Both the position numbers and the translations under genes were made by a program. This document shows, one piece after another, positions 2,275 to 31,328 of a DNA stretch of 64,000 bases. The notes below the pieces were generated by a model. It did no database searches. It had not been told where the DNA came from and saw only the letters and a list, made by a program, of their open reading frames with translations. Numbering within the stretch: the stretch's first letter is position 1; each line of letters opens with the position of its first letter. The stretch comes from an uncultured Spirochaetales bacterium. GTDB lineage: Bacteria; Spirochaetota; Spirochaetia; Sphaerochaetales; Sphaerochaetaceae. The stretch is taken from assembly GCA_949285145.1 (NCBI GenBank), contig CASDXQ010000004.1, forward strand, positions 1-64,000. Direction: 5' to 3'.

Positions 2275-3384
2275 ATGATTGAGATCAGGCACTTAAGAAA
2301 AGTATTCGATGACGATACTATTCCCCTGAAAGACATTGATATCACGATAAACAAAGGTGACGTGATATCTGTCATCGGACCTTCTGGAACAGGAAAATCA
2401 ACACTCCTCAGATGTATCAACATGCTGACCGAACCCACATCGGGCAGCATCATTGTCGACGGTCAGGACATCACTGAGAAAGGATGCAACCTCAACGAGA
2501 TAAGAAAGAAGATGGGAATGGTTTTCCAGTCATTCAATCTTTTCGGACATCTCACAATCATTGAGAACATCATGAATCCCCAGATAACACTGCTGGGCCG
2601 CAGCCGTCAGGAGGCATATGACAAGGCCATGTATCTTCTGCAGCAGGTCGGTCTTGCTTCCAAGGTTTTCAATTATCCTGATGAGCTTTCAGGCGGACAG
2701 CAGCAGAGAATCGCCATTGCAAGGACGCTTGCCATGGATCCTGACATCATCCTTTTCGATGAGCCGACAAGTGCGCTTGATCCTTCGATGATCGGCGAAG
2801 TCCAGTCTGTCATCAAGATGCTGGCGAAAAGCGGAAGGACGATGATGATCGTCACGCATGAGATGGATTTCGCAAGGAAAATCTCCAACCGCATCATCTT
2901 CATGTATGACGGGTACATTCTTGAGGAGGGAACTCCGAAGCAGATTTTCGAGCATCCACAGAACGAGATCACGAAGAAATTCATACAGCGTCTTTCCTCT
3001 CTTACATACAGGATCACTTCCACCGCTTTCAATGTCGAGGCGATGAATGACGAGCTCAACGCATACGGCGAGAAACTCCTCATAGAGGCGGAAAGACTGA
3101 GCAAGCTCATGCTCGCATTTGAGGAAATCTGTATCAACAACATTGTCGCAAACAGCGAAGTTCCCGATGTCCTCGTGAAAGTCGAGTATTCCGAAAAGCT
3201 TGATATCCTTTCAATGCTCATCTGCTATAAAGGTGAGAGATTTGATGTCCATGAATCCGGCAGCAAGCTTTTCCTTGATCTGCTTGCAGAACCCACGACG
3301 GAAATCAAGCAGGATGACATAAGCGGAGATCCAATGGGCTATGATCATGTGATCTCAATGCGTTTCAGATGGGTGGAGGAGTGA
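2275..3384 (+). CDS. Amino-acid ABC transporter ATPase with extra C-terminal domain
   Basis: Residues 1-250 are a GlnQ/HisP-type ATPase: Walker A GPSGTGKST, Q-loop VFQSFNLFGH, signature LSGGQQQR, Walker B IILFDEPTSALDP and the switch His in VTHEMDF. It should energise the permease encoded 4 bases downstream. The family is normally 240-255 residues; this one has 369. The extra 120 residues include FEEICINNIVAN, resembling the N-box of GHKL/RsbW-type ATPase folds, and a YKGERFD segment where such domains carry their DxGxxFD motif. This suggests a degenerate anti-sigma-like or regulatory domain, which is an inference. ATG at 2275 follows GCGGAGGG; an earlier in-frame ATG at 2224 would add an unrelated tail. 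Confidence 0.9.
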   Translation: MIEIRHLRKVFDDDTIPLKDIDITINKGDVISVIGPSGTGKSTLLRCINMLTEPTSGSIIVDGQDITEKGCNLNEIRKKMGMVFQSFNLFGHLTIIENIMNPQITLLGRSRQEAYDKAMYLLQQVGLASKVFNYPDELSGGQQQRIAIARTLAMDPDIILFDEPTSALDPSMIGEVQSVIKMLAKSGRTMMIVTHEMDFARKISNRIIFMYDGYILEEGTPKQIFEHPQNEITKKFIQRLSSLTYRITSTAFNVEAMNDELNAYGEKLLIEAERLSKLMLAFEEICINNIVANSEVPDVLVKVEYSEKLDILSMLICYKGERFDVHESGSKLFLDLLAEPTTEIKQDDISGDPMGYDHVISMRFRWVEE

Positions 3385-3388
3385 GAAA

Positions 3389-4897
3389 ATGAAGAAAATA
3401 TGTCTGTTTTTCGCGGCCTTCCTGCTGCTTTCATCCTGCATCTTTGCTTCTGCCTCAGAATACACGACGATTGAGGAGCTTAACGGAAAGAACATCGGTG
3501 TCCAGACTGCCGTGCTTTACGAGGAACTGATTCAGGACAGGGTTCCTGATGCTGTTTTCCAGTATTACACAATGCCCAACGACATGATTTTGGCACTTCA
3601 GTCCGGCAAGGTTGATGCCTATCTCATCGAGGAAGTGAGCTACGGGGTTCAGAAAAAGAACCATCCTGATCTTGCAGTCCTTGACGAGCCTGCCGGTTAT
3701 ATCAATGCGACCTGCATCATCGGCAACAACGAACGTCAGGACAGGCTGCTGTCAGAGCTTAACCAGTTCATTGCCGACAGCTGGGATAACGGACTGCTTG
3801 ATGAGCTTTATGATTACTGGATCGCAGACTTCGATCCCGTGAACGACAAGTGCGACATCACGGGCTTTAGTGGAGAAAACGGTGTGATCAGCGTTGCCGT
3901 TGAAGGCGGCTATGAGCCGTTCTCCTTCATCAGCAATGGAAACATCTCGGGTTTTGATGTCGATTTCATCTGCCGCTTTGCACGTGCATACGGCTACACT
4001 CCGGAATTCTATGAGGTGCCTTTTGAAGCCATCGCACCCGGGGTGGAAAGCGGAAAATATGATATCGGAATGAACATTGTCGTAAGCGCGGAGCGCAATG
4101 AGACGGGAACATTGTCCTCTGTCTATTACACAACGCCGATACGTCTTGTCATCATGGGCGAGGACGAGTCTGAACTCACATTCTTCCAGCAGCTGGCGGA
4201 AAGCTTCAACAAGACATTCATGAGAGAAGGCAGATGGAAGCTTTTTGTCGAAGGCGCGGGAATCACGATTCTCATCACGGTGACTTCAATCATCGCGGGA
4301 ACTGTTCTGGGCTTTATCATCTACATGCTGTGCAGGAAAGGGAATGTCCTTATGAACAAGGGAACAAATGTCTTCCTATGGCTGATTCACGGCATGCCTA
4401 CGGTACTTCTTCTGATGATTCTCTATTACATCGTATTCGGCTCTTCTTCCCTCAGCGGCACATGGGTATCCGTGGTGGGCTTCTCGCTGATGTTCGCCTG
4501 TTCGATGATCGACATGCTGCGTGTCGGCTGCAATGCGATAGGAAAGGGGCAGTTTGAGGCATCCACGGCACTGGGCTACTCGGAGAGGCAGAGTTTCTTC
4601 AAGATCATCCTTCCCCAGGCGGCGCAGCATTTCCTTCCAATCTACCGCAATGATGTGGTCACCCTCATCAAGGAAACATCTGTTGTCGGCTACATCGCCG
4701 TGCTGGATCTCACAAAGATAAGCGATCTTGTCAGAAGCCGCACCTATGAGGCCTTCTTCCCTCTGATCGTCACTGCGATCATGTACTTCATAATATCCGC
4801 AGTGCTGACAAAGCTTGTCACCATTGTCGAGCATTCGATTGATCCGAAGAGAAGGAAGAAAGACAAGATACTCAAAGGCATAAAGGAAAAAGACTGA
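3389..4897 (+). CDS. Amino-acid ABC transporter: fused, rearranged binding protein plus permease
   Basis: The 502-residue protein has a signal sequence with a lipobox-like LSSC ending at Cys17. Residues 27-150 match the second half of family-3 binding proteins (ELNGKNIGVQT, ALQSGKVDAYL, a terminal helix ending YDYWI). Residues 160-255 match the first half (GGYEPFSF, GFDVDFICRFA, SGKYDIGMNIV). So the lobes appear in swapped order. From about residue 285 onward it is a HisM/GlnP permease with several membrane helices and the coupling loop EASTALGYSERQ...PQ near 389-409. It pairs with the upstream ATPase to form an amino-acid importer. Substrate unknown. A terminator follows. Confidence 0.85.
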   Translation: MKKICLFFAAFLLLSSCIFASASEYTTIEELNGKNIGVQTAVLYEELIQDRVPDAVFQYYTMPNDMILALQSGKVDAYLIEEVSYGVQKKNHPDLAVLDEPAGYINATCIIGNNERQDRLLSELNQFIADSWDNGLLDELYDYWIADFDPVNDKCDITGFSGENGVISVAVEGGYEPFSFISNGNISGFDVDFICRFARAYGYTPEFYEVPFEAIAPGVESGKYDIGMNIVVSAERNETGTLSSVYYTTPIRLVIMGEDESELTFFQQLAESFNKTFMREGRWKLFVEGAGITILITVTSIIAGTVLGFIIYMLCRKGNVLMNKGTNVFLWLIHGMPTVLLLMILYYIVFGSSSLSGTWVSVVGFSLMFACSMIDMLRVGCNAIGKGQFEASTALGYSERQSFFKIILPQAAQHFLPIYRNDVVTLIKETSVVGYIAVLDLTKISDLVRSRTYEAFFPLIVTAIMYFIISAVLTKLVTIVEHSIDPKRRKKDKILKGIKEKD

Positions 4898-4914
4898 TTT
4901 CCATTTGACATCAT

Positions 4915-4950
4915 AAAGGTGCGCTCAGGGTTGAGGTCTGCACCTTTTTT
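4915..4950 (+). terminator. Rho-independent terminator of the amino-acid ABC operon
   Basis: AAAGGTGC (4915-4922) pairs with GCACCTTT (4940-4947), a perfect 8-bp stem that runs into six Ts at 4945-4950. It sits 18 bases after the permease stop and separates it from the potassium channel gene. Confidence 0.85.
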
Positions 4951-4969
4951 ATGTTGGCAGAGAAAGTTA

Positions 4970-6421
4970 ATGCATTATAAATCGATAATCCGTCTTCTGA
5001 GCTATATCACATTCCTTATGGCAGTTTTTCTGCTTGTCCCATCACTTGTATCCGTTTTCTACAAAGAAGATGAGTGCATAAGAGGGTTCCTGCTCACATC
5101 TTTCATAATGCTGGTGACTTCCTCTGTTGCCGTCCTCATCTCCGGCGGTGTCGAGAAGATCACAATAAGTGTGAAGGACAGCTATCTTTTTGTCACGCTG
5201 ACATGGTTTCTCCTTGCGTTTTTCGGAGCTCTGCCTTTTTATTTTACAGGAGCGTTTGACAGCTTTGCAGGCTGTTTTTTCGAAAGCATGTCGGGCTTTA
5301 CCGCCACAGGAGCTTCAATGATGGGGGAAATCGACACTTCCCTCAAAGGCATACTTTTCTGGCGCAGCATGACCAACTGGATCGGAGGCATGGGTATTGT
5401 CCTTCTCTTCATCGCCGTACTTCCGTCCCTCGGGATGAGCGGTGCATCTTTGTACGGTGCGGAGATGATCGGACCGACAAAGGAAAAACTGCTGCCGCTC
5501 ATGAAAGATACGGCACTTGTGCTTTGGGCCCTTTACATAGGCCTTTCGGTTCTCCAGGTTGTTTTTCTCTTTTTCGGCGGACTGGACTGGTTTGATGCCA
5601 TGACGATCATGTTTGCGACGATGGGATCTGCCGGATTTGCACCTCACAGCGCGTCAATTGCTTATTATGATTCTGTCTATGTCAACTGGGTGTGCATCAT
5701 CTTCATGTTTCTGGCAGCTGTCAATTTCTCGCTTTTCTTCCACCTGCTGCGGGGTAAATTCAGAAAGGTTTTTTCGAATTACGAGCTGAAGCTGTATTTC
5801 ACGATTCTGTGCATTGCAACCCTGCTTGTGACATGCAATCTTGTCATGAAGGGGTTCTTCTCCCTTCCTTCCGCATTCAATCATGCGGCATTCCAGGTCG
5901 TGAGCTTCATGACGACTACCGGCTTTGTCAGCGCGGATTACTCATCCTGGCCTTTTTTCTCGCAGATGGTACTGTACATTCTGTGCATAATAGGGGGATG
6001 TGCCGGTTCCACGAGCGGCGGCATAAAAGTGATCCGGGCAGGGGCCATGATGCAGATCTTCCGCAATGCCATGATAAAACGGCTTCATCCCTCCGCCGTC
6101 GTGAAGATACATACCGGAACCTCAGGATTCTCGACAGACACCGTTCAGGCCATAGCTGGATTCACGGGCTTTTATTTCGCGAACATAATTCTGGGAACTC
6201 TCATATTGTCGCTTACCGGTTTTGACTTCCTGATCACGCATTCCGCGGTTCTCCTTGCACTGACAAATGTGGGCGTCGGTTTCGGCGGGCTGGGCACGAG
6301 TGTCTCATTCTCCATCTTTCCTGACTGGGCACTGTCCGTTCTTTCCTTTCTCATGCTTGCCGGACGTCTTGAGCTTTTCACGGTCTATTCAATCTTCACA
6401 CGCGACTTCTGGAGAAGGTAG
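4970..6421 (+). CDS. TrkH/KtrB-family potassium uptake protein
   Basis: A hydrophobic 483-residue membrane protein with the four-fold pore organisation of TrkH/KtrB. The selectivity-filter loops can be seen as SGFTATGAS, MGSAGFAP, MTTTGFVS and TNVGVGFG, each with the conserved Gly. The conserved GGCAGSTSGGIKVIR block lies between pores three and four. It should move K+ (or Na+/K+) across the inner membrane, normally with a cytoplasmic TrkA/KtrA gating subunit; none is encoded in this window. The start is placed at 4970 (MHYKSIIRLL, just before the first helix). Because it lies after the terminator, it is presumably transcribed from its own weak promoter. The ribosome-binding site is poor (AGAGAAAG). 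Confidence 0.9.
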   Translation: MHYKSIIRLLSYITFLMAVFLLVPSLVSVFYKEDECIRGFLLTSFIMLVTSSVAVLISGGVEKITISVKDSYLFVTLTWFLLAFFGALPFYFTGAFDSFAGCFFESMSGFTATGASMMGEIDTSLKGILFWRSMTNWIGGMGIVLLFIAVLPSLGMSGASLYGAEMIGPTKEKLLPLMKDTALVLWALYIGLSVLQVVFLFFGGLDWFDAMTIMFATMGSAGFAPHSASIAYYDSVYVNWVCIIFMFLAAVNFSLFFHLLRGKFRKVFSNYELKLYFTILCIATLLVTCNLVMKGFFSLPSAFNHAAFQVVSFMTTTGFVSADYSSWPFFSQMVLYILCIIGGCAGSTSGGIKVIRAGAMMQIFRNAMIKRLHPSAVVKIHTGTSGFSTDTVQAIAGFTGFYFANIILGTLILSLTGFDFLITHSAVLLALTNVGVGFGGLGTSVSFSIFPDWALSVLSFLMLAGRLELFTVYSIFTRDFWRR

Positions 6422-12456: not shown

Positions 12457-12504
12457 TTGTCTGTTTGAGATTTTTAATCATCTTGGTTTCTGTATGTTTT
12501 CTTT

Positions 12505-12527
12505 CTTTAAAACATTTGTTTTTAAAG
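12505..12527 (-). terminator. AT-rich inverted repeat downstream of the MATE gene
   Basis: CTTTAAAA (12505-12512) pairs with TTTTAAAG (12520-12527), a perfect 8-bp inverted repeat about 70 bases past the stop of the minus-strand MATE gene. The stem is weak. It may help end that transcript. No gene is seen between 12457 and 12595. Confidence 0.3.
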
Positions 12528-12595
12528 GGGACTGCAGTCAGTTTTTTTCATCCAGAATCTGGTTTGAATATGAGCATTTTTCTGCTTGGAAAAAC

Positions 12596-13942
12596 TCAGC
12601 CGTTCTTTCTGTACTTTCTGTAGATCACAGTGAAACAGATCACATGGGAGATGAATGTTATTATCCAGGTGATCGGATATGAAAGATACAGCGTGAAAAG
12701 AGTCGGGGAGAGTCTGTAGACTGTCATGATCCATATGATCCTGAAAAGGCATACGCCGGTGAGCGTGACAATGGTCGGCAGGAGGGAGTAGCCCAGGCCC
12801 CTTATCGAGCCGCATGCTGTATCCATCATGCCGTCAAAGAAATATGTCGGGAAGATCACTTTCATTCTTCCCATGCCGTATGAGGCGACTTCGGGATCCG
12901 ATGTATAGATTGAAAGCAGCTGATTGCCGAAGATGAGGCCGAGTGAGCCCAGAATTATGCCGACAAGTGCGACAATGACAGTGCATACAATGAAGATCGG
13001 CACAATTCTCTCTTTCTTTCCGGCTCCCATGTTCTGGCTTGTGAAACTTGTTGATGCCTGATAAAGGGAGTTCATGGCCGTATATATGAATCCTTCAAGG
13101 TTCACACCCGCCGTGTTGCCTGCCACGGCAATTGAACCGAATGTGTTTATTGAAGACTGGATCAGGACATTCGAGATGTTGAAAAGAGCACCCTGAACTC
13201 CTGCGGGAAGTCCTATTTTCATGATAAGGCGAAGCTTCGAGCTGTATATTTTCAGTCTTCTCAGATCAAGATTGTATGCTGCATTGCTTTTCATCATGCA
13301 GCGTACGACAAGGAATGCCGAAATGTACTGCGATATGATTGTAGCAAGGGCGACACCTGCAACACCGAGGCCGAAAACAAGTACGAAGAAAAGATTCAGG
13401 CATACGTTTATGATGCCGGATGTGAGAAGGTAGATCAGCGGACGTCTGGTATCTCCGACAGCCCTGAGTATTCCGGCGCCGAAGTCGTAAGTCAGCATTG
13501 CCGGCATTCCGAGAAATACTATGCTCATGTAAAGCACTGCCTGTGACAGGACATCATCCGGGGTTCCCATGAGGGAGAGAAGCGGACGTGCCCCGATAAG
13601 CCCTATCACTACAAGAGCGAAGCCGCAGACAATGGAAAGGAGAATCGACGTATGTACGAGTTCGTCTATGTTCTTCTGGTCCTTTGCGCCATAGTAGCGT
13701 GCCATGAGCACGCTGCTTCCGATTGAAAGACCGAGGAATATGTTGACTATCAAATTGTTCAGACTGCTTGTTGAGCCGACTGCGGCCATTGCCTGAGGTC
13801 CTGTGAATTGACCCACAACTATGATATCGGCAGCATTGAAGAGAAGCTGGAGAATGCCGGAAGCCATCAGGGGAAGGGCGAACTGCAGCACTTTCGGAAC
13901 AAGAGGCCCGCTGCACATGTCAATTTCGTAACTACGCTTCAT
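12596..13942 (-). CDS. MATE-family efflux transporter
   Basis: The 448-residue protein has about twelve helices and the MATE N-terminal pattern EIDMCSGPLVPKVLQFALPLMASGILQLLFNAADIIVVGQF, plus RRPLIYLLTSGIINVCLNLFFV between helices. It exports drugs or metabolites using a Na+ or H+ gradient; substrate unknown. The start at 13942 gives the family's usual short N-terminus. The open frame extends further upstream to 14089 without MATE similarity. No good ribosome-binding site precedes the ATG, but TATCAT lies 8 bases upstream (13951-13956) with TGGAAA 17 bases before that, so this gene too may be leaderless. Confidence 0.88.
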   Translation of the reverse strand: MKRSYEIDMCSGPLVPKVLQFALPLMASGILQLLFNAADIIVVGQFTGPQAMAAVGSTSSLNNLIVNIFLGLSIGSSVLMARYYGAKDQKNIDELVHTSILLSIVCGFALVVIGLIGARPLLSLMGTPDDVLSQAVLYMSIVFLGMPAMLTYDFGAGILRAVGDTRRPLIYLLTSGIINVCLNLFFVLVFGLGVAGVALATIISQYISAFLVVRCMMKSNAAYNLDLRRLKIYSSKLRLIMKIGLPAGVQGALFNISNVLIQSSINTFGSIAVAGNTAGVNLEGFIYTAMNSLYQASTSFTSQNMGAGKKERIVPIFIVCTVIVALVGIILGSLGLIFGNQLLSIYTSDPEVASYGMGRMKVIFPTYFFDGMMDTACGSIRGLGYSLLPTIVTLTGVCLFRIIWIMTVYRLSPTLFTLYLSYPITWIITFISHVICFTVIYRKYRKNG

Positions 13943-14106
13943 AGCCAGTGATGATATTCCTGCGCCGATAATATTTCCAGTACTTCCCGCATGAAAAAAT
14001 ATGGATCTGAATTTTTCTCCGTGTAAAGAAGTGAGGTATAGATAGAAGGAAAGAGCGGTAACTCTTATGATTTGAATCGCCAAAAACAAGTCAAGGAGAA
14101 CCGCTC

Positions 14107-14283
14107 ATGAAAGAAGATAGCACGTACCTCTTGTCAGAATCCACAGGCTGGATAGTGGATTGGGAGAACCCATTGCTTGAGCTGTGCAGGGACGGCCGGC
14201 GAGGCATCACGTATGAGAAGATCACAAGCGAGCAGCTTGACGAGTTGCAGTATCTTGCATATCCGATGGAATATTACGTCTGA
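14107..14283 (+). CDS. Small conserved-looking hypothetical protein, 58 residues
   Basis: ATG at 14107 follows AAGGAG with good spacing, and the frame closes at 14283, right before a strong terminator. The product is acidic and probably cytoplasmic, with aromatic pairs near both ends (GWIVDWENP, YPMEYYV) and no signal or membrane segment. I do not recognise a family. The ribosome-binding site, the clean stop and the terminator 20 bases later make it look like a real single-gene transcript, divergent from the MATE gene. Confidence 0.6.
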   Translation: MKEDSTYLLSESTGWIVDWENPLLELCRDGRRGITYEKITSEQLDELQYLAYPMEYYV

Positions 14284-14305
14284 TTTTTCAGATTGTCTGT
14301 CTTAC

Positions 14306-14329
14306 GTCTGCCGGGTCAGTCCGGCAGAC
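14306..14329. terminator. Bidirectional terminator between the small gene and ldhA
   Basis: GTCTGCCGG (14306-14314) pairs perfectly with CCGGCAGAC (14321-14329). ATTTT follows on the plus strand, so it ends the small gene. It lies 31 bases after the ldhA stop on the other strand and could serve both. Confidence 0.85.
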
Positions 14330-14360
14330 ATTTTATCTGTTTTCAGCAGATCCTTTGTTT

Positions 14361-15341
14361 TCACTTCACCTGGTGTGTCAGAGTCTTTCCTTCTTCGAAT
14401 TCCTTCACATTCGCAAGCGTTGTCCCGCTGATTGCACTGAGGGCCTCCTCGGTAAGATAGCCCTGATGTGATGTTATGATCGCGTTGGGCATGCTTATGA
14501 GGCGGGCAAGAGTGTCATCTTCTATGCCTTCGCTGCTCTGATCCGTGTAGAATATTCCGGCTTCTTCCTCATAGACATCCAGTGCCGCGCCTCCTAGTTT
14601 CTTCTCCTTCAGAGCCTCAACAAGGGCTTCGGAGTCGATCAGGGCACCGCGGGAGGTATTGATCAGGAAGGCTGTGTCCTTCATGGCATCAATGGTTGCC
14701 GCATTGATCATGTGCCTGTTCTCTTTTGTGAGAGGGCAGTACAGCGAGACAACATCCGCTTCTCTCAGAAGTGTGTCAAGATCAGTGTACTGCACATCAG
14801 GATCCTTTGCCGGATACGGGTCGTATGCAAGGACTTTCATGCCGAATCCTTTTGCGATGCCGATTGCAACCCTGCCGATTTTTCCGGTGCCGACAACTCC
14901 GAATGTCTTGCCGTACAGATCCATGCCCACAAGGCCCGAGAGGGAGAAGTTGAATTCCCTTGTCCTCACATATGCATGTGTCAGCTTTCTGACAAGCGCG
15001 AGAAGAAGGGCGAAAGAATGTTCGGCAACAGCATGCGGGCTGTATGCCGGGACTCTCACGACAGGAATGCCTTTTTCATTCGCATACTGGTAATCGACAT
15101 TGTTGAAGCCGGCAGAACGCATGGCGATGAGACGGACTCCTTCCTGGCTGAGGATGTCGATGACAGTTCTGTCAACCGTGCAGTTGACAAACGGGCAGAC
15201 CACATCCGCACCTTTTGCCATGACTGCACTGTGGGCATTCAGCGCAGGTTCGAGGTATACGATCTCAAAGCCGTAATCCATGTTTGCCGCGTCAAAATGC
15301 TTTTTATCATAATTTTTGGTGTCAAAAAGAACTATTTTCAT
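14361..15341 (-). CDS. ldhA: D-lactate dehydrogenase (D-2-hydroxyacid dehydrogenase family)
   Basis: The 326-residue cytosolic enzyme reduces pyruvate to D-lactate with NADH. It aligns along its length with E. coli LdhA: N-terminus KIVLFDTKNYDKKHF, MRSAGFNNVD, RVPAYSPHAVAEHSFALLLAL, NAD-binding VVGTGKIGRVAIGIAKGFGMKVLAYDPYP, catalytic Arg in INTSRGALID, Glu in DVYEEEAG and the catalytic His in ITSHQGYLTEEAL. The start at 15341 follows GCAGGAG; an ATG three codons earlier is too close to that site. It fits a fermentative, redox-balancing role. It is downstream of the CheB-CheR gene on the same strand but 114 bases away. Confidence 0.92.
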   Translation of the reverse strand: MKIVLFDTKNYDKKHFDAANMDYGFEIVYLEPALNAHSAVMAKGADVVCPFVNCTVDRTVIDILSQEGVRLIAMRSAGFNNVDYQYANEKGIPVVRVPAYSPHAVAEHSFALLLALVRKLTHAYVRTREFNFSLSGLVGMDLYGKTFGVVGTGKIGRVAIGIAKGFGMKVLAYDPYPAKDPDVQYTDLDTLLREADVVSLYCPLTKENRHMINAATIDAMKDTAFLINTSRGALIDSEALVEALKEKKLGGAALDVYEEEAGIFYTDQSSEGIEDDTLARLISMPNAIITSHQGYLTEEALSAISGTTLANVKEFEEGKTLTHQVK

Positions 15342-15454
15342 GTTTGTCATTCTCCTGCACCTAATGTAATGATAAAAATTCCATAAGGAAAGAAAAATTT
15401 TCTCTCCTTCTGTGAGAGTGAGACAGAGGATGCCGCATGCTGCGGCATCACGAT

Positions 15455-22396: not shown

Positions 22397-22402
22397 ACTG
22401 TG

Positions 22403-23431
22403 ATGGAAAGAAAGTTTTTTTCTCCCGGCTGTTCCGGTTTTTCATGGAAGAGTGAAGACAACCTGCATTTTCTCGGGCGCACCTATGATATGTTCGGCGA
22501 TCTTAAGGGCAACATGATAACGCTCATTGCAGAAGGTTATGAACTGAATACATCCCCCTCCGGAGAAGGGGAGAAGGTCAGTCTGAGATACGGCCTCATC
22601 GGCAATGCCATACAGGGCTCCGCTTCTCCCATTTTCACTGACGCGATAAACGAGAAAGGCCTCATGGGAACACTTCAGAACTTCCCCTCTTACGGCCACT
22701 TTGATACGCAGAAGGGGAAAACCGATGTGCATCCTGCATTCTTCCTTCCTTACATGCTCGGCCTTTGTTCCTGCATTGATGAACTGTGCGAAATGGCCGG
22801 TAAAATCAATCTGACAGGCGAGCTTATATTCAACTCCCATATGTCCGTGCATTATATTTTCAGCGATGAAAGCGGGGAGGCTGTCATCATCGAGCCTGAT
22901 GAAGATGGCATAACTGTTCACCGCAATACAGTCGGCGTTATGACGAATGCCCCCGGTTACAGATGGCAGCATGACAATCTGAAAAACTATGTTGCACTCT
23001 CTCCGTTTCACACCCCGCCGCGGCCTCTTCTGGGCGAGAGTGTCTCGACATTTGGCAGCGGCACCGGCGGCAGCTTCGGCCTGCCCGGCAGTTTCTCGTC
23101 TCCCGACAGGTTCGTGCGTCTTGCCTTTGCCAAGGATTTCTCTCCTCCAGGAAAGAATGAGGAAGATGCCGTGAACCGCATGTTCAGTATTTTCTCAACC
23201 GTAACGGTTCCTGACGGTATGCTGAGGGAATCGGCGGAAAGTGAGGAATGCGAGAAAACACTGTGCACCTGCGTTATGTGTTCTGAAAGCCGCACGTATT
23301 ACTTCTCTCCCTTCGAGAACAGGAGAATCAGCGCGTACTCCCTTATGAATGCCCTCCGTCTGATGAAAGACGGGGAGAAGATCAAACTGTATCCTCTGCC
23401 GCTGGTATGCGATATTGATCATGTCGTCTGA
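22403..23431 (+). CDS. Choloylglycine hydrolase / penicillin V acylase family (linear amide hydrolase)
   Basis: The 342-residue Ntn-hydrolase has CSGFSWKSEDNLHFLGRTYD, the counterpart of the bile-salt hydrolase start (nucleophile Cys, then Arg and Asp). Also seen are INEKGLMGTLQNFPSYG, MTNAPGYRW and SSPDRFVRLAF, matching the family's Asn and Arg active-site segments. The Cys is residue 10, so a nine-residue propeptide would have to be removed, as in penicillin acylases; most bile-salt hydrolases start at Cys2. There is no signal peptide. It hydrolyses an amide bond; whether the substrate is a bile salt, a penicillin-like compound or an acyl-homoserine lactone cannot be told. AAGGAG precedes ATG 22403. 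Confidence 0.85.
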   Translation: MERKFFSPGCSGFSWKSEDNLHFLGRTYDMFGDLKGNMITLIAEGYELNTSPSGEGEKVSLRYGLIGNAIQGSASPIFTDAINEKGLMGTLQNFPSYGHFDTQKGKTDVHPAFFLPYMLGLCSCIDELCEMAGKINLTGELIFNSHMSVHYIFSDESGEAVIIEPDEDGITVHRNTVGVMTNAPGYRWQHDNLKNYVALSPFHTPPRPLLGESVSTFGSGTGGSFGLPGSFSSPDRFVRLAFAKDFSPPGKNEEDAVNRMFSIFSTVTVPDGMLRESAESEECEKTLCTCVMCSESRTYYFSPFENRRISAYSLMNALRLMKDGEKIKLYPLPLVCDIDHVV

Positions 23432-23499: not shown

Positions 23500-24390
23500 T
23501 CAGAATTCGATAAGTTCGTACTCTCTTGTTCCGTATCCCAGTTCTGCTGCCGCCTCGATTGTGTGGATGCCGTTGCGGCTGTTGACTCTCTCCATGAAAT
23601 GTTCCTTTCCCGTGTCATCACTGTTCATGACAAGATCGATGCATGCCTGATCGATTGCAACAGGATCAAGGGATGCAAGGATGCCGATGTCTTTCATGCA
23701 GGGGTCCTCTGCAACCTCACAGCAGTCGCAGTCCACAGAAAGATTCTTCATCACATTGATGAATGCGATCCTGTCTCTGAAGTGCTTCACCACAGTCATG
23801 GCGGCATCTGCCATCGCTTTGGGAAAGACTGTGCTGTTTGCATGTTTCTGCCAGGTCTCAAAGCGGTCGTCAGTGACACCTGCCGAGTGGATGAGCGCTT
23901 TTCCCGCACGGCTTGCGCAGCCTATTGAAAGCTGTTTGAGAGCTCCGCCGTAACCTCCCATCGGATGACCCTTGAAGTGGGCGAGGATCAGCATCGAATC
24001 ATAATTCAGGATGTTCTTTCCCACATGGTTCTCTCTAAGGACCTTTCCGCCTGTCACATTCCAGATGACATCGGGTCCCTCTCCGTCCATAAGATCGACA
24101 TTGAAGTACTTTGTCCATCCGTGTTCTTCCATGAGTTTCCAGTGTGATTCAGTGTTGTCCCTCACTCCGCCGGCAGCATCTCCGTATGCGGTGTTGCATT
24201 CAACAATGGTACCGTTGACTTTCTCAACCGCCGGACGCCAGAATTCGGGGGGCAGGTAGTTCTGGTTTCCCTTTTCTCCCGAGTGGACTTTGACTGCCAC
24301 TTTCCCCGTAAGCTGTATGCCGAGCTTTTCATAGGCTTCAACCACCTTTTCCGGTGTAAGCGCTCTGGTGAAATAAACTTTGGCTTTCAT
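23500..24390 (-). CDS. DUF362 domain protein
   Basis: The 296-residue protein is a DUF362 family member: KVAVKVHSGEKGNQNYLPPEF, CNTAYGDAAGGVRDNTE, LAHFKGHPMGGYGGALKQLSIGCASRAGKALIHS and ILASLDPVAIDQACIDLV. Many relatives carry a ferredoxin domain after this unit; this one does not, though it has a CDCC cluster near residue 230. The biochemical role of the family is not established; redox or iron-sulfur functions are often suggested. GGAGG precedes the ATG at 24390. Its promoter carries two palindromes, one identical to that of the flavodoxin operon at 50946. It converges with the hydrolase gene. Confidence 0.85.
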   Translation of the reverse strand: MKAKVYFTRALTPEKVVEAYEKLGIQLTGKVAVKVHSGEKGNQNYLPPEFWRPAVEKVNGTIVECNTAYGDAAGGVRDNTESHWKLMEEHGWTKYFNVDLMDGEGPDVIWNVTGGKVLRENHVGKNILNYDSMLILAHFKGHPMGGYGGALKQLSIGCASRAGKALIHSAGVTDDRFETWQKHANSTVFPKAMADAAMTVVKHFRDRIAFINVMKNLSVDCDCCEVAEDPCMKDIGILASLDPVAIDQACIDLVMNSDDTGKEHFMERVNSRNGIHTIEAAAELGYGTREYELIEF

Positions 24391-24418
24391 ATGATTCCTC
24401 CATGGATGCAACTCTGTT

Positions 24419-25505: not shown

Positions 25506-28076
25506 ATGAAGATACTGGTTTTAGGCGCTGTCGCGGCCGGAACGAAAGCAGCTGCGAAACTCAAGAGAGAAGACAGATCTCTTGATGTGAAGATCATCAC
25601 AAAAGGAAATGATATTTCCTATGCAGGCTGCGGGCTGCCTTATTACATAGGAGAAGTCATTGAGGACAGAAGTTCTCTTATCGTGAACACGCCTGAAAAA
25701 TATTCATCGCTTACCGGTGTGGATGTTCTGACCGGCTGTGAGGCTGTCGGTGCCGATTTTGTGAAAAAGAGTGTCACTTACGTCGACAGAGATGGAAACA
25801 AAGGACAAGAGAGTTATGACAAGCTGGTCATAGCGACAGGAGCTGAAAGCATAGTTCCTCCTGTTGCGGGCGTTGAGCTGGAAGGTGTCTTCACGGTGCG
25901 CACTCCCGATGATGCTGAGAATATAAGGGCTTATGCGAAGAAAGACGGTGTTCGGAAGGCTGTCGTCGCCGGTGCCGGTTTCATCGGGCTCGAGATTGCG
26001 GAGAACCTGCACAGGGAAGGTCTTTCAGTCACCGTCATTGACATGGCCGATCAGATAATGCCCAATGCCTTTGATGAGGAAATGGCTTCATGGGCCGGAA
26101 AGAGAATCGAAGAGGCCGGTACCAGAGTACTGCTGGGGGCAAGACTTGAGGAGATCAGAGGAGAGAACGGAAAGGCCGTGTCAGTCAGGACTGACAAGAC
26201 AGAGCTTCCTGCCGATATGGTCATTCTCGCACTCGGTGTACGTCCTTCCACTTCATTTCTTGAAAATACCGCGCTTGAGATGGAAAAGGGTGCGATCGTC
26301 GTCAATCAGAACATGGAGACAAATATTGAAGATGTCTATGCGGCCGGCGACTGTGCTCTTGTGACAAACAGGATCACAGGAGAGAGAATGTATTCTGCAA
26401 TGGGCTCGAGTGCAAACATAAGTGCAAGAGTGCTTGCAAAGAACGCTGCCGGAAAGGCTTCCCTTTACCCGGGCGCCCTCGGGACAGGTGTTGTCAGGAT
26501 ACTTGACAATCTCAACGCGGGACGTACGGGTCTTACTGAGGCCGCTGCCGTCAAGAAGGGTTTTGAAACTGTCACTGCAGTTGCCGTGACAGACGACAAG
26601 GCTCACTATTATGAGGGTTCCTCCTTCTTCATCATGAAGCTCATAGCGGAGAAAAAGACTCACAGAATACTCGGCTTCCAGATTCTCGGAAGCGGAAATG
26701 TCGACAAGATAAATGATATCGCGGTGCTTGCCGTTACAAAAGGCATGAAGGTGGAGGAATTCGACAGTATGGATTTCTCCTACGCTCCTCCTTTCTCAAC
26801 GGCAATTTCTCCTTTTGTCCAGATTTGCAATGTGCTTGAGAACAAGATACTCGGACAGCTTGAGACAATTACCCCGCTTGAATACATGAAGACACGGGCA
26901 AAGGGATACAAGGTCATTGATGTCATGCCTGAAAAGACGATTCCCGGTGCGCAGTGGATCGATCTTGGACATGTCACCGGTCCGCTGGAGGGCATCGCAC
27001 GTGATGAGAAGCTTCTGCTTGTCTGTGCCAGGGGAAAGAGGGGCTATTTCCTCCAGAACCGCCTGAAGTATTACGGATATACGAATACAAGAGTGCTTGA
27101 AGGAGGCCTTACCTTCAATGATGTGAGAGTCGATTTCGGCTCCGTGATCCCTCCTGAGGAAGTGAAGAGGGTGAAAGGTCTGGGATGCCTTCAGGACAAG
27201 AGACAGCCCGATCATTTCAATGTGAGGGTGATAACAAGGAACGGCAAGCTCACGTCTGCAGAACAGATGGCTGTCGCTGAAGCCGCGAGCAGGTTCGGAA
27301 GCGGGGAAGTGACGATGACAACTCGTCTGACTCTTGAAATCCAGGGTGTTCCTTACCCGGACATCGATCCGCTTATTGCATATCTGAAGGAGAGAGGTCT
27401 TGATACCGGCGGAACCGGAAGCAAGGTGCGTCCTGTGGTTTCCTGCAAGGGAACTACATGTCAGTACGGTCTCATCGACACATTCGGTCTGTCTGAGAAG
27501 CTTCACAGGATATTCTATGAAGGTTGGCATGGCGTTTCACTCCCGCACAAGTTCAAGATCGCGGTGGGCGGCTGTCCTAACAACTGCGTGAAGCCCAGTC
27601 TCAACGACATCGGAATAATGGGCCAGAGGATAATCGACTTCAGCTTTGACAAATGCAAAGGCTGCCGTGTGTGCCAGGTTGAGAAAGCCTGTCCGGTAAA
27701 GATCGCCCGTCTTGAAGACGGAAAGCTGGTTGTGAAGGACAGCGAGTGCAACCACTGCGGGCGCTGTCTTGACAAGTGTCCCTTCGGCGTCACTCCTTCA
27801 TATACCACAGGCTATGCGGTTTATGTGGGCGGCCGCTGGGGCAAGAAGATAGAGCTCGGCAAGAGGCTTTCACGTGTGCTCACAAGCGAGGATGAAGTCA
27901 TCCGTCTTGTCGAGAATGCGATTCTTCTTTTCAGGGACGAGGGAATCAGCGGGGAGCGCTTTGCCGATACCGTGAACCGTCTCGGCCTTGAGTATGTCGA
28001 GGATAAACTGTTCAGCGGCAAGATTGACAAAGAGAAGATCTTGAAGAAGAATGTTACCGGCGGGGCAACCTGCTGA
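25506..28076 (+). CDS. CoA-disulfide reductase / rhodanese / siroheme sulfite reductase-like / ferredoxin fusion
   Basis: The 856-residue protein has four parts. Residues 1-445 are a CoA-disulfide-reductase-type flavoprotein: FAD site GAVAAGTKAAAKLKR, redox Cys42 in YAGCGLPYYIG, NAD site VVAGAGFIGLEIAENL and YAAGDCALV. Residues 455-545 are a rhodanese domain with Cys508 in LLVCARGKRG. Residues 570-710 resemble the C-terminal half of nitrite/sulfite reductases, with Cys648 and Cys653 (SCKGTTCQYG) and Cys691 and Cys695 (GGCPNNC) placed to hold a [4Fe-4S]-siroheme centre. Residues 718-760 are a double [4Fe-4S] ferredoxin (CKGCRVCQVEKACP, CNHCGRCLDKCP). It probably moves electrons from NAD(P)H to a sulfur substrate. 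The first two domains are known together as CoADR-Rhd; the exact reaction is unknown. Confidence 0.88.
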   Translation: MKILVLGAVAAGTKAAAKLKREDRSLDVKIITKGNDISYAGCGLPYYIGEVIEDRSSLIVNTPEKYSSLTGVDVLTGCEAVGADFVKKSVTYVDRDGNKGQESYDKLVIATGAESIVPPVAGVELEGVFTVRTPDDAENIRAYAKKDGVRKAVVAGAGFIGLEIAENLHREGLSVTVIDMADQIMPNAFDEEMASWAGKRIEEAGTRVLLGARLEEIRGENGKAVSVRTDKTELPADMVILALGVRPSTSFLENTALEMEKGAIVVNQNMETNIEDVYAAGDCALVTNRITGERMYSAMGSSANISARVLAKNAAGKASLYPGALGTGVVRILDNLNAGRTGLTEAAAVKKGFETVTAVAVTDDKAHYYEGSSFFIMKLIAEKKTHRILGFQILGSGNVDKINDIAVLAVTKGMKVEEFDSMDFSYAPPFSTAISPFVQICNVLENKILGQLETITPLEYMKTRAKGYKVIDVMPEKTIPGAQWIDLGHVTGPLEGIARDEKLLLVCARGKRGYFLQNRLKYYGYTNTRVLEGGLTFNDVRVDFGSVIPPEEVKRVKGLGCLQDKRQPDHFNVRVITRNGKLTSAEQMAVAEAASRFGSGEVTMTTRLTLEIQGVPYPDIDPLIAYLKERGLDTGGTGSKVRPVVSCKGTTCQYGLIDTFGLSEKLHRIFYEGWHGVSLPHKFKIAVGGCPNNCVKPSLNDIGIMGQRIIDFSFDKCKGCRVCQVEKACPVKIARLEDGKLVVKDSECNHCGRCLDKCPFGVTPSYTTGYAVYVGGRWGKKIELGKRLSRVLTSEDEVIRLVENAILLFRDEGISGERFADTVNRLGLEYVEDKLFSGKIDKEKILKKNVTGGATC

Positions 28077-28161: not shown

Positions 28162-29013
28162 ATGTTCAAAAAGCCCTTTCTGTGTCTTCTAATGGTGCCT
28201 GCACTTCTTTCTCCGCTTCATGCATTCACGACGGCATGTCTCAATTCATCGATTGCCGATCTCTTCCTTCTTGCCGGCGGCAGTGTTGATATTACGGTGC
28301 AGGATTCAGTTGACAGAGGTTTTGTGCCTGATGATGTGCTTCTTGCCGATTCCGCATCGGGGATGAACATCAACAGGGAAATTCTCATTTCAGGAGCTCC
28401 TGATCTGGTCCTCGGCTCTGCAGACAGTGCATCACATGTGAAACTCAAGCGTTTCCTTGATGAGAGAGGCGTGGATATGATTCTCATAAAGCAGGACAGC
28501 TTTGAGGACTTCCTTTCAGTTTTCAGGACTCTCACCGAAATTACAGGACGAAGTGACCTTTTTGTAAAATACGGTCTCGGGCAGAAAGCCGGCATTGAGG
28601 CAATCATAGAGGAATGCAGAGGAAAGGAAGATAAGCCGTGCGTTCTTTTCGTAAGGGCGGGAAGCGCATTCTCGTCTGTCAGGGCGAAAAGGGCAGATGA
28701 CCATTTCGCTGCCGGCATAATAGAGGACCTGGGCGCTGCAAATGCCGCGGATGTGAATGATGTACTCACCGAAAGCCTTTCCCTTGAAGCCATAATCACA
28801 AGTGATATCGACAAGATACTCATAGTGCCGCAGGGTGATGAGGGTGAGAGCATCAGCTATATGAATTCTCTTTTCAGCCGTCCGGGATGGCGGGATATAA
28901 AAGCGGTGAAAGAAGGAGAAGTCCATTTTCTTCCAAAGGATTTGTTCCATTACAAGCCCAACGGACGGTGGGCGGAAGCCTATGCCGTAATGAAAGAGGT
29001 GCTTTATGGATAA
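28162..29013 (+). CDS. ABC transporter substrate-binding protein, cobalamin/iron-complex type
   Basis: The 283-residue exported protein (signal peptide ending around SPLHA) has the fold pattern of BtuF/FecB-like binding proteins: ISGAPDLVLG, LKRFLDERGVDMILIKQDSFEDFLSVFRTL, then a long helix, and a C-terminal lobe with FSRPGWRDIKAVKEGEVHFLP. It binds a cobalamin, haem, siderophore or related chelate for the permease and ATPase that follow. There is no lipobox Cys at the signal end. GAGGATAGT precedes the ATG. Its end overlaps the permease gene by 8 bases. Confidence 0.85.
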   Translation: MFKKPFLCLLMVPALLSPLHAFTTACLNSSIADLFLLAGGSVDITVQDSVDRGFVPDDVLLADSASGMNINREILISGAPDLVLGSADSASHVKLKRFLDERGVDMILIKQDSFEDFLSVFRTLTEITGRSDLFVKYGLGQKAGIEAIIEECRGKEDKPCVLFVRAGSAFSSVRAKRADDHFAAGIIEDLGAANAADVNDVLTESLSLEAIITSDIDKILIVPQGDEGESISYMNSLFSRPGWRDIKAVKEGEVHFLPKDLFHYKPNGRWAEAYAVMKEVLYG

Positions 29014-29983
29014 TGTCAGATTCATCAGAACTGTCATTGTCCTGTCCCTGCTGTTGGCCATGATGACAGTCATCTCCCTCTTCACGGGCTCTGTTCCCCT
29101 TGATCTTTCCTCAATCCCCGATGCTGGTTCGGCAGAGAACATCATTTTCTTTTCGCTGCGTCTGCCCAGGGTGTGTGCCTGCCTTCTTGCCGGCTTTGCA
29201 CTTGCGCTTTCGGGTTTCATGCTCCAGAGCGCGAGCTCAAACGATCTTGCAAGCGGAAACATCATAGGAATAAACGCAGGTGCGGGATTTGCAGTCCTTC
29301 TGTTCCTTGTTTTCTTTCCAGATTTTTTCCATCTGCTGCCCTTTGCGGCATTCGCCGGTGCGCTTATGGCATGTGCGCTTGTCTTCATCATTTCTGCATT
29401 CACGAAGAGCATAGGCTCATCAGGTTCCCTGATTCTTTCCGGTGTTGCCGTAAATGCGCTCTTCAATGCGCTTATAAGCGCGCTGAGTTCGCTTTTTCCT
29501 GATGTGATGTCATCCTACAGCTCCTTCTCGGTCGGAGGCTTCGCATCTGTATATGCCTCATCCCTCATCGTTCCCTCCCTCCTGATATGTGCGGGAGGAA
29601 TACTGTGTTTCTCACTTTCTCCCGTGATGAACATCATAAGACTGGGGGATGAGATCACATCATCCATGGGATACCGTCCCTTCAGAATCAGGATAATCCT
29701 TGCTTCGGTAGCGGCCCTGCTTGCATCCAGTGCCGTCTCATTCGCAGGACTGCTGGGCTTTGTCGGTCTTGTGATTCCTCATCTTGCCCGCTTCCTCAGC
29801 GGAGGAGAATCTCTCAGGTCGCTGGTTATATCTGCCCTGGCAGGACCGCTTCTGGTGCTTTCGGCAGATCTTCTGGCCCGTACCGTGATTTCCCCGGGTG
29901 AACTTCCTGCAGGCATTTTCCTTTCCATTACAGGCGTGCCGTTCCTCATCTTTCTGCTTGTAAGGAGGAAAAGATATGATTGA
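29006..29983 (+). CDS. FecCD/BtuC-family ABC permease
   Basis: The 325-residue membrane protein has the FecCD signature: LRLPRVCACLLAGFALALSGFMLQSASSNDLASGNIIGINAGAGFAV, later GDEITSSMGYRPFRIR and FAGLLGFVGLVIPHLARFLSGG, ending with PGELPAGIFLSITGVPFLIFLLVRRK. Typical ten-helix BtuC-like importer subunit. It overlaps both neighbours by 8 bases, so the three genes are translationally coupled. Confidence 0.93.
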   Translation: MDNVRFIRTVIVLSLLLAMMTVISLFTGSVPLDLSSIPDAGSAENIIFFSLRLPRVCACLLAGFALALSGFMLQSASSNDLASGNIIGINAGAGFAVLLFLVFFPDFFHLLPFAAFAGALMACALVFIISAFTKSIGSSGSLILSGVAVNALFNALISALSSLFPDVMSSYSSFSVGGFASVYASSLIVPSLLICAGGILCFSLSPVMNIIRLGDEITSSMGYRPFRIRIILASVAALLASSAVSFAGLLGFVGLVIPHLARFLSGGESLRSLVISALAGPLLVLSADLLARTVISPGELPAGIFLSITGVPFLIFLLVRRKRYD

Positions 29984-30686
29984 AGTTTCGTCCCTTACGA
30001 TAATGGAAGGCGGAAAAACTCTTCTTGACAATCTTTCCTTCACACTTGAAGAGGGAAAGATATATGCATTGTGCGGGGTTAACGGAAGCGGCAAGACCAC
30101 GCTGATCAGGGCACTGAATTCCTATTTTCCGCATTACGGCGGAAGTATCCGCTTCAACGGAAAGGAACTCTCCCGATGCAGCAGAAAGGAAAAGGAAAAA
30201 CTTCACGCCCTTCTTCCCCAGAGCATTCCGGTCTCATCAGTGAGCACAGCGTCCCTTTTCGAACACAACGGACAGGCCGCCGCACTGCTTGACGGATTCT
30301 CTCTTTCCCGTCTCGTGAGACAGAACCTTGCAAGCCTTTCAGGCGGAGAAAGGGTTATGGTGTTCCTTTCCCTCATGCTCTCCCGTGATGTGCTTCTGTA
30401 TTCATTTGACGAAAGTGAGGCGAATCTGGATGCCATGTACAGAAAGCTGATCGAAGAGAGGATGAGAAAGCTTGCTGAAGAGAAAAAGACCGTTCTGGCC
30501 TCATTCCATGACATCAACAAGGCACTTGAAATAAGTGATGAGCTAATTGTCCTGTCAGAAGGCAGGCTGGCCTTCAAGGGAAATCCTGCCATGTTCATAT
30601 CTGATGATATAGGGGGAAGGTTCTTCTCCCTTGACCTCAGAAGACTCACTGATGAGGAGGGACGTCAGTATTCACTCTTTTTGTAA
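29976..30686 (+). CDS. ABC transporter ATPase, FecE/BtuD type
   Basis: The 236-residue ATPase has Walker A GVNGSGKTT, signature LSGGERVMVFL and Walker B LLYSFDESEANLD, where the usual LDEPT is replaced by FDESE, keeping the catalytic Glu equivalent. The switch region is ASFHDINKAL. It energises the permease at 29006. It ends 15 bases inside the convergent chelatase gene. Confidence 0.9.
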   Translation: MIEVSSLTIMEGGKTLLDNLSFTLEEGKIYALCGVNGSGKTTLIRALNSYFPHYGGSIRFNGKELSRCSRKEKEKLHALLPQSIPVSSVSTASLFEHNGQAAALLDGFSLSRLVRQNLASLSGGERVMVFLSLMLSRDVLLYSFDESEANLDAMYRKLIEERMRKLAEEKKTVLASFHDINKALEISDELIVLSEGRLAFKGNPAMFISDDIGGRFFSLDLRRLTDEEGRQYSLFL

Positions 30687-31328
30687 TTCCATCAGGTGCC
30701 GTATGAATATGTTTTTCAGTGAGGGGAAAACGGATAGTATTCCATTTTCGATGAAGGAGACGTCATAGCCGGAAGAGGCAAAGTGCTTTGAGCATCCGGC
30801 CATGATTTCATGCTTTGCATGATGGCCGCAGGTGAGAAGGAAGGGAATCAGAGTCAGGCCGGTGCAATGCGGTTTCAGTGTTCTGTAGTTGTCTTTTCCT
30901 TTCAGCGCAGTGATGATCACATCGTCTCTCAGATGCTCCTGAAGTGTCCGGTATTCTTCTATCGTCCGCTGTTCATCTCCGTGTGCGACGAGAATGTAAT
31001 TGTGGTCTTTCTTCTTGTCCAGAGTACTGTTTATGACAGAGGCACATTCCCTTATGTCGTCTTTCCTGCAAAGCAGGGGCGGTGCTGTTACTGCCCCGCA
31101 AGAGAGGAGCTTTTCATAAGTTCCCCCTTTCTGTATGAGAAGCGGGAGGATTAGAATCTTCTCATCAGGTGAAAAAGCAAGCCGGCTTGAAATATCCTGA
31201 TGCATCAGGCTGATGCTTCCGCACGACAGTGATGACGCATCCTGCAGCTCTGTGATGAAAGAGGAAAGCTCTGACATTGCTTTTTCATCCTTTGTACCGA
31301 AGTATGCGATGATAATTCTTTTCTTCAC
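30672..31328 (-). CDS. CbiK-like sirohydrochlorin chelatase
   Basis: The 218-residue protein resembles anaerobic cobaltochelatase CbiK: N-terminus RIIIAYFGTKDEKAMSEL, metal-binding-type His in ILVAHGDEQ, and PFLLTCGHHAKHEIMAG with further His residues. CbiK inserts Co2+ (or Fe2+) into sirohydrochlorin for cobalamin or siroheme synthesis. No other cobalamin or siroheme synthesis gene is present in the window. It converges on the importer operon and faces the siroheme-type fusion protein, so a role in preparing siroheme or remodelling an imported tetrapyrrole is plausible but inferred. Confidence 0.75.
   Translation of the reverse strand: MKKRIIIAYFGTKDEKAMSELSSFITELQDASSLSCGSISLMHQDISSRLAFSPDEKILILPLLIQKGGTYEKLLSCGAVTAPPLLCRKDDIRECASVINSTLDKKKDHNYILVAHGDEQRTIEEYRTLQEHLRDDVIITALKGKDNYRTLKPHCTGLTLIPFLLTCGHHAKHEIMAGCSKHFASSGYDVSFIENGILSVFPSLKNIFIRHLMELQKE

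Follow-up and report, generated by a model that had tools for sequence, protein, structure and literature searches.

Among the described siroheme reductases, AsrABC has an NADH-linked partner, and NirB combines a pyridine-nucleotide oxidoreductase with a siroheme domain on one chain. AsrC, the siroheme subunit of AsrABC, belongs to the group III Dsr-like proteins (PMC3448663) and is related to the F420-dependent sulfite reductase (Fsr), in which sulfite is held by Arg355, Arg423, Lys460 and Lys462 (PMC10229431). DsrC takes sulfur from DsrAB as a trisulfide, which is then reduced by DsrMK (PMC10504309). Here we analyse a 64,000-nucleotide stretch (the window) of contig CASDXQ010000004.1, assembly GCA_949285145.1, from an uncultured Spirochaetales bacterium of the Sphaerochaetaceae. 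The product of its gene at 25506-28076 joins a CoA-disulfide reductase (CoADR) and a rhodanese (together CoADR-Rhd) to a complete Fsr/AsrC-type sulfite reductase half on one chain. We propose, with a probability of roughly 0.6, that this protein is a single-chain NADH-dependent siroheme sulfite reductase with a cysteine arm acting as a relay, supplied with imported siroheme or sirohydrochlorin. The gene is organised as follows:

25506..28076, + strand: fused CoADR-rhodanese-sulfite reductase gene (open reading frame of 856 residues, Pfam, homologues)
25506..26807, + strand: CoADR half with FAD/NAD(P)H and dimerisation domains, residues 1-434 (Pfam, phmmer against PDB, model-structure matches)
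25629..25631, + strand: Cys42, CoADR redox cysteine, motif SYAGCGLPYY (invariant in 21 fused proteins)
26901..27110, + strand: rhodanese domain, residues 466-535 (Pfam, 24.8 bits, cutoff 22.2)
27024..27026, + strand: Cys507, rhodanese cysteine (invariant in 21 fused proteins)
27195..27392, + strand: NIR_SIR_ferr ferredoxin-like half domain, residues 564-629, with sulfite ligand R574 (Pfam, Fsr alignment)
27417..27998, + strand: NIR_SIR 4Fe-4S/siroheme domain, residues 638-831, with cysteines 647, 652, 690 and 694 and ligands R642, K682 and K684
27639..27791, + strand: inserted eight-cysteine 2x[4Fe-4S] ferredoxin, residues 712-762 (Pfam, Fsr alignment)
28014..28073, + strand: variable C-terminal arm 837-851 and GGATC 852-856 with terminal Cys856 (alignment)

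The reading frame runs uninterrupted from the ATG through the stop codon. Its N-terminal part shows the whole CoADR-Rhd architecture, with FAD/NAD domains (Pyr_redox_2 at 1-289), a dimerisation domain (Pyr_redox_dim at 336-434), a redox cysteine near residue 43 and a cysteine-bearing rhodanese domain (E 3e-5). Among solved structures, the first 540 residues or so most closely resemble rhodanese-bearing persulfide/CoA-persulfide reductases (6pfz, 8a56 and 3icr). For the CoADR half, phmmer against PDB retrieved the Archaeoglobus fulgidus protein 6pfz and the Enterococcus faecalis CoAPR 8a56, and the predicted model of the full protein gave structure matches to this half with a TM(target) of 0.93. 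The alignment with CoADR-Rhd, Npsr and CoAPR enzymes (6pfz, 8a56, 3icr, 3ntd) is full-length over residues 1-540 and includes both the redox and the rhodanese cysteines; the fused protein differs from them by some 300 additional residues, which make up an entire sulfite reductase. Its scores stay below the cutoffs of the CoA-disulfide reductase equivalogs (TIGR03385, 378.9 vs 578.8 bits; NF007123, 386.7 vs 458 bits).

In the C-terminal part, NIR_SIR_ferr (E 4e-14, 52.4 bits, curated cutoff 24) and NIR_SIR (E 8e-28, 97.3 bits, curated cutoff 27) are both recognised, and a 4Fe-4S dicluster match at about 712-762, with cysteines 717/720/723/729 and 748/751/754/758, lies within the NIR_SIR domain. 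Among solved structures the last 300 residues or so are nearest to Fsr-C (E 1e-35 to 1e-32), and the protein is predicted to be a siroheme-type reductase of the Fsr/AsrC/Dsr-like kind, more precisely group III Dsr-like. The original prediction, made from the DNA letters, had placed CoADR, rhodanese and a siroheme-type reductase on one protein, with a nitrite/sulfite reductase domain in residues 560-710; the Pfam domains and the retained catalytic residues agree with it. It had counted two [4Fe-4S] clusters, where the sequence has room for three, one siroheme-coupled and two ferredoxin-type, and its cysteine numbering was right for Cys42 but off by one for the rhodanese (507) and siroheme-cluster cysteines (647, 652, 690, 694). 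Moreover, it had overlooked the cysteine arm at the C-terminus, the importer and chelatase genes next door and the inability of the host to synthesise siroheme. A fusion created by chance or misassembly is excluded, since the same full-length fusion without stop codons is found in relatives of the genus and in Clostridia.

Comparison with Fsr-C, likewise group III Dsr-like, revealed the same domain order, the 12 cluster cysteines, the four sulfite-binding Arg/Lys residues and the two ferredoxin clusters (PMC10229431, PMC3448663). On the other hand, the fused protein carries CoADR-Rhd where Fsr has its F420H2 oxidase, has Cys-x4-Cys instead of Cys-x5-Cys, and ends in the GGATC arm. In the alignment to Fsr, Arg355, Arg423, Lys460 and Lys462 correspond to R574, R642, K682 and K684, and all 12 cluster cysteines have aligned partners. 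These sulfite ligands and cluster cysteines are invariant among 21 fused proteins, as are Cys42 and Cys507. The segment 633-711, containing the siroheme-cluster site, is the best conserved, with 67% of positions invariant vs 14-36% elsewhere in the domains. Since the four ligands are conserved, sulfite is the best-supported substrate and a likely one. AsrABC differs from this arrangement by its separate subunits and its different NADH module, and the fused protein falls below the cutoff of the AsrC equivalog TIGR02912 (105.7 vs 324.1 bits).

The Cys-x4-Cys spacing that the original prediction had pointed out (CKGTTC, vs Cys-x5-Cys in the solved Fsr) is real. Every clade member read has this spacing, with slight variation in the motif (CKATTC and CKGTVC, for example), so it is not a sign of decay; the AsrC-like protein of the spirochaete G046 has the x5 spacing (CPGARLC). 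Two Clostridia (loci L030 and L037) have genes for siroheme biosynthesis behind the fusion gene, which ties the reductase clade to siroheme. In L030, hemA, hemC, cobA/hemD, hemB and hemL were confirmed by Pfam in the cluster behind the fusion, and a match to the precorrin-2 dehydrogenase model TIGR01470 (G063:C40:13235-13810) falls between hemA and hemC once the contig offset is applied. Such an operon is not common to all clostridial fusions, since it was seen in L030 and L037 only and not in L031-L035. The concern about the spacing is answered, indirectly, by its clade-wide occurrence and by the two members heading siroheme biosynthesis genes, and the C-terminal half very probably binds siroheme. 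The shorter spacing, together with a spirochaete genus devoid of CobA, HemB and precorrin-2 dehydrogenase, could also be taken to mean that the siroheme half is degenerate or holds iron-sulfur clusters only. This appears highly improbable given that the same motif exists in siroheme-making clostridial genomes, including the two just described, that the four sulfite ligands are retained and that conservation peaks in the segment holding the siroheme site.

Gene absences reported here rest on homology and profile searches of genome sets. Neither HemB nor a CobA match over the cutoff was found in any of 37 genomes searched in the family of the window, and precorrin-2 dehydrogenase was not found in the 13 fusion-bearing genomes of the genus. 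With these three enzymes missing, the spirochaete would be unable to make siroheme by known routes. Bacteria without the early tetrapyrrole steps are known to salvage cobamide precursors from outside (PMC6461909); that study concerns cobamide synthesis and does not mention siroheme. At the present locus, a gap of 85 bp separates the fusion gene from three transport genes overlapping each other by 8 bp, and a convergent chelatase gene follows:

28162..29013, + strand: class III substrate-binding protein of the proposed importer (Pfam Peripla_BP_2; fold matches)
29006..29983, + strand: FecCD-type permease (Pfam FecCD, 1e-73)
29976..30686, + strand: ABC ATPase, heme/siderophore type (homology)
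30672..31328, - strand: CbiK-like (sirohydrochlorin) metal chelatase, convergent (Pfam CbiK, 54.6 bits, cutoff 26.2)

The three components of an ABC transporter, namely class III binding protein, FecCD permease and ATPase, thus stand beside a siroheme enzyme in a host without siroheme synthesis, as would be expected of an importer for siroheme or a precursor. Wherever a spirochaete locus extends far enough, the importer lies 3' of the fusion, even where protein identity has fallen to 33-38%, and the upstream genes differ. Within the genus it is directly downstream in 13/13 genomes with the fusion, in most cases together with a CbiK-like chelatase, and absent from the three without it. CbiK in the family of the window is likewise confined to fusion-bearing genomes.

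An exchange between importer and siroheme synthesis was then evident among 59 clostridial genomes carrying this reductase. The importer is present in 33 of the 35 genomes without precorrin-2 dehydrogenase and in 0 of the 24 with it (p 1.5e-14), two of these 24 positives scoring under the model cutoff. Similar counts were obtained for HemB (33/36 without, 0/23 with) and CobA (32/34 without, 1/25 with); the single CobA exception, G429, has the importer but neither HemB nor precorrin-2 dehydrogenase. Most clostridial importers (27/33) lie within 3.4 kb of the reductase on the same contig. On a tree of the reductase domains, eight independent HemB contrasts fall on supported branches, the importer being opposite in 6.7 and concordant in 0 (p 0.016). 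From this pattern, siroheme or a precursor is probably the substrate of the importer.

A transporter of B12, heme or iron, placed beside the reductase for reasons incidental to siroheme, would be compatible with the families involved, a FecCD permease and a heme/B12/siderophore-type ATPase, and a relative of the importer does sit within a cobalamin gene cluster in the genome G060. The predicted fold of the binding protein (predicted local distance difference test, pLDDT, 90) matches the heme binders RhuT, ShuT, IsdE and BhuT as well as siderophore binders, so the fold alone leaves the substrate unfixed. Such a transporter nevertheless appears quite unlikely in view of the near-perfect exclusion with siroheme biosynthesis genes over the 59 genomes, repeated on the tree, and of the absence of the importer wherever the fusion is missing inside the genus. 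Furthermore, in the spirochaete G046 the same kind of importer is paired with a second type of sulfite reductase: an asrA-asrB-asrC-like operon, named by our reading of the sequences except for CbiK, is followed by the importer and a CbiK-like gene. In this genome CobA does not exceed the cutoff, precorrin-2 dehydrogenase is absent and HemB gives a 46-residue fragment match only. B12 import was also considered by way of riboswitches, and no cobalamin riboswitch or other Rfam match was found in the window or in eight related loci.

As to the form of the imported compound, sirohydrochlorin uptake followed by iron insertion is likely where a CbiK-like gene is present. For most clostridial importer clusters, ready-made siroheme appears more likely, because no chelatase adjoins them and their genomes have no precorrin-2 dehydrogenase; a chelatase elsewhere in the Clostridia was not searched for. 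Cobalamin-pathway genes are present in G046 and G060, where neither HemB nor CobA gives a match over the cutoff (the fragment match aside); with such a gene content, import of a precursor shared by siroheme and B12 would make sense. In G060 (L059), a CbiK with a signal- or lipoprotein-like start (3238-4137), a TonB-receptor-like gene (4165-6144) and the importer relative in the cobalamin cluster (12489-15425) were also noted; corrin precursor import is a possible role for them. A literature search for siroheme uptake yielded an unrelated fungal paper and no description of the process.

At the C-terminus, every fused protein closes with GGATC or GGASC. Across 21 aligned proteins, these last five residues are fully invariant, whereas the preceding 15 (837-851) are 0% invariant, the least conserved stretch, and the end of the predicted model is of low confidence (mean pLDDT 52). 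In 58 clostridial genomes, the GGAxC tail was found in 25 of 26 reductases fused or adjacent to CoADR-Rhd vs 1 of 32 others (p=4e-14), with flanks of just 1.5 kb for some loci. The tailed exception without CoADR-Rhd is fused to a C_GCAxxG_C_C domain, and the tail-less one with CoADR-Rhd is situated near a contig end. The arm could link the siroheme site with the cysteines of rhodanese and CoADR as a relay for sulfur or redox equivalents; we give even odds to this role, which is comparable to that of DsrC. The likeness to DsrC/DsrMK that we propose goes no further than a cysteine arm at the C-terminus that brings partly reduced sulfur to another reductase: here the arm is on the same chain and non-homologous, and the reductant would be NADH, without a membrane complex.

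In the proposed mechanism, sulfite would be reduced at the siroheme-[4Fe-4S] centre of the C-terminal half with electrons from the two ferredoxin clusters. The invariant cysteine of the flexible arm would accept the sulfur as a persulfide and pass it to the rhodanese/CoADR half, which would reduce it to sulfide with NADH, thus taking the role of DsrC and DsrMK in sulfate reducers. The downstream ABC importer would bring siroheme or sirohydrochlorin to a spirochaete without siroheme synthesis, and the CbiK-like chelatase, where present, would insert iron. More widely, the sequence evidence on balance favours a guild of gut spirochaetes and Clostridia, siroheme auxotrophs that would use an importer beside a sulfite reductase, the CoADR-linked forms being one-chain analogues of DsrAB-DsrC-DsrMK.

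The CoADR half might instead merely feed NADH electrons through the ferredoxin to a six-electron sulfite reductase, rhodanese and tail having minor or regulatory functions. NirB likewise joins Pyr_redox_2 to a siroheme domain, its model TIGR02374 matches residues 5-329, and fused and two-gene forms both occur, as with electron-transfer partners. However, the invariant Cys42, Cys507 and GGATC tail are not needed for a pure electron feed, and the tail occurs with CoADR and almost never otherwise. The fused protein also differs from NirB by its rhodanese and ferredoxin and by a TIGR02374 score below the cutoff (217 vs 578 bits), and the BFD [2Fe-2S] domain is not among the Pfam families listed for it. 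We therefore regard this alternative as unlikely.

The pairing of rhodanese with a sulfite reductase would be accounted for by a one-chain thiosulfate reductase: the rhodanese would split thiosulfate, leaving the persulfide to be reduced by CoADR and the released sulfite by the siroheme half, with two sulfides as products. The same job was proposed for a separate rhodanese and Asr in Halanaerobium, where protein levels and sulfide production respond to thiosulfate (PMC5497025). A thiosulfate-specific gene was not seen near the fusion, and many clade members are standalone sulfite reductases without rhodanese. In addition, the rhodanese domain of CoADR-Rhd enzymes is known to handle persulfides. 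Thiosulfate reduction is a real but less likely alternative.

Several observations weigh against the single-chain relay supplied by import. The pLDDT of the predicted model drops below 50 exactly at the siroheme loops 636-655 and 691-694, and the PDB matches listed for the full model in the fold search cover the N-terminal CoADR half only. On the tree, the association of tail and CoADR rests on three contrasts on well-supported branches, nearly all concordant, and is non-significant there; with so few independent changes, shared ancestry could explain it. Tail-less standalone sulfite reductases exist, so the tail is dispensable for the siroheme chemistry itself. The homology of the importer spans heme, siderophore and B12 systems equally, and the substrate assignment thus rests on gene linkage and co-occurrence. 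No chelatase adjoins the importer in the deep spirochaete branch (L053-L055) or in most clostridial importer clusters, and it was rejected as a fixed part of the cassette. Finally, the clostridial genomes G064, G113 and G310 have neither HemB nor the importer; an incomplete genome is likely for G310, since its reductase is near-identical to that of the HemB-bearing G362.

The full-length fusion is intact in 13 of the 16 genomes of the spirochaete genus of the window (59-92% identity, no stops), and it occurs in clostridial genomes at 55-58% identity; Clostridia with the fusion include Negativibacillus, Lachnospiraceae NSJ-143, Copromonas and Eisenbergiella, among others. Strong matches (>350 bits) to the sulfite reductase half were found in 56 of 391 sampled clostridial genomes, mostly as a separate gene of about 320 residues, with CoADR-Rhd as the next gene in many cases and the reductase alone in others. 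Two clostridial reductases are fused to different N-terminal modules: L080:1081-2430 to a C_GCAxxG_C_C redox domain (Pfam), with a GGATC end, and L081:1498-2904 to a module that looks similar by eye, without GGATC. In a tree of 71 reductase domains, with many weakly supported branches, the proteins from spirochaetes fall into two groups within the clostridial ones, as would be expected from two lateral transfers. CoADR-Rhd alone, stopping at the domain junction, exists in the spirochaete G030 (L014) and at locus L036; it is about 70% identical to the N-terminal part of the fusion, has no adjoining importer, and may reflect domain loss or the unfused ancestor. A shared regulatory motif was sought upstream of the fusion gene, and only scattered conservation near the start codon was found. 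Literature searches did not find a CoADR-sulfite reductase fusion described; each part is of a known kind, and the way in which they are combined, the tail and the cofactor supply appear to be new.

Some neighbouring genes recur. A choloylglycine (bile salt) hydrolase family gene lies near the reductase cassette in the window (22400-23431) and in L046:6594-7628, L047:12432-13466, L098:4933-5904 and L105:7977-8948, immediately 5' of the fusion in two spirochaetes and nearby in two Clostridia. It could link taurine release from bile salts to sulfite, though the family also includes penicillin acylases. A PF03601 (YeiH-like) permease, possibly a sulfite/sulfonate transporter, is often 3' of two-gene CoADR-Rhd and reductase clusters in Clostridia (L112:8760-9791; L071:2619-3698). 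A DUF362 protein near the fusion (window 23500-24411, - strand) is retained in several species of the genus.

Whether gut bacteria turn sulfite into sulfide is usually judged by dsr/asr marker genes, and the fusion, scoring below the Asr cutoff, may escape such detection. Through the C-terminal cysteine arm, the passage of partly reduced sulfur from siroheme to a second reductase could be studied in a simple soluble system, and the rule that the importer is present where biosynthesis is absent provides a testable candidate substrate for this transporter family. Should siroheme be the cargo of the importer, a cofactor that each user was believed to make for itself would become a shared good, and many gut anaerobes would rely on neighbours for their sulfide output. 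Sulfite-to-sulfide reduction in these spirochaetes and Clostridia would then hinge on cofactor cross-feeding.

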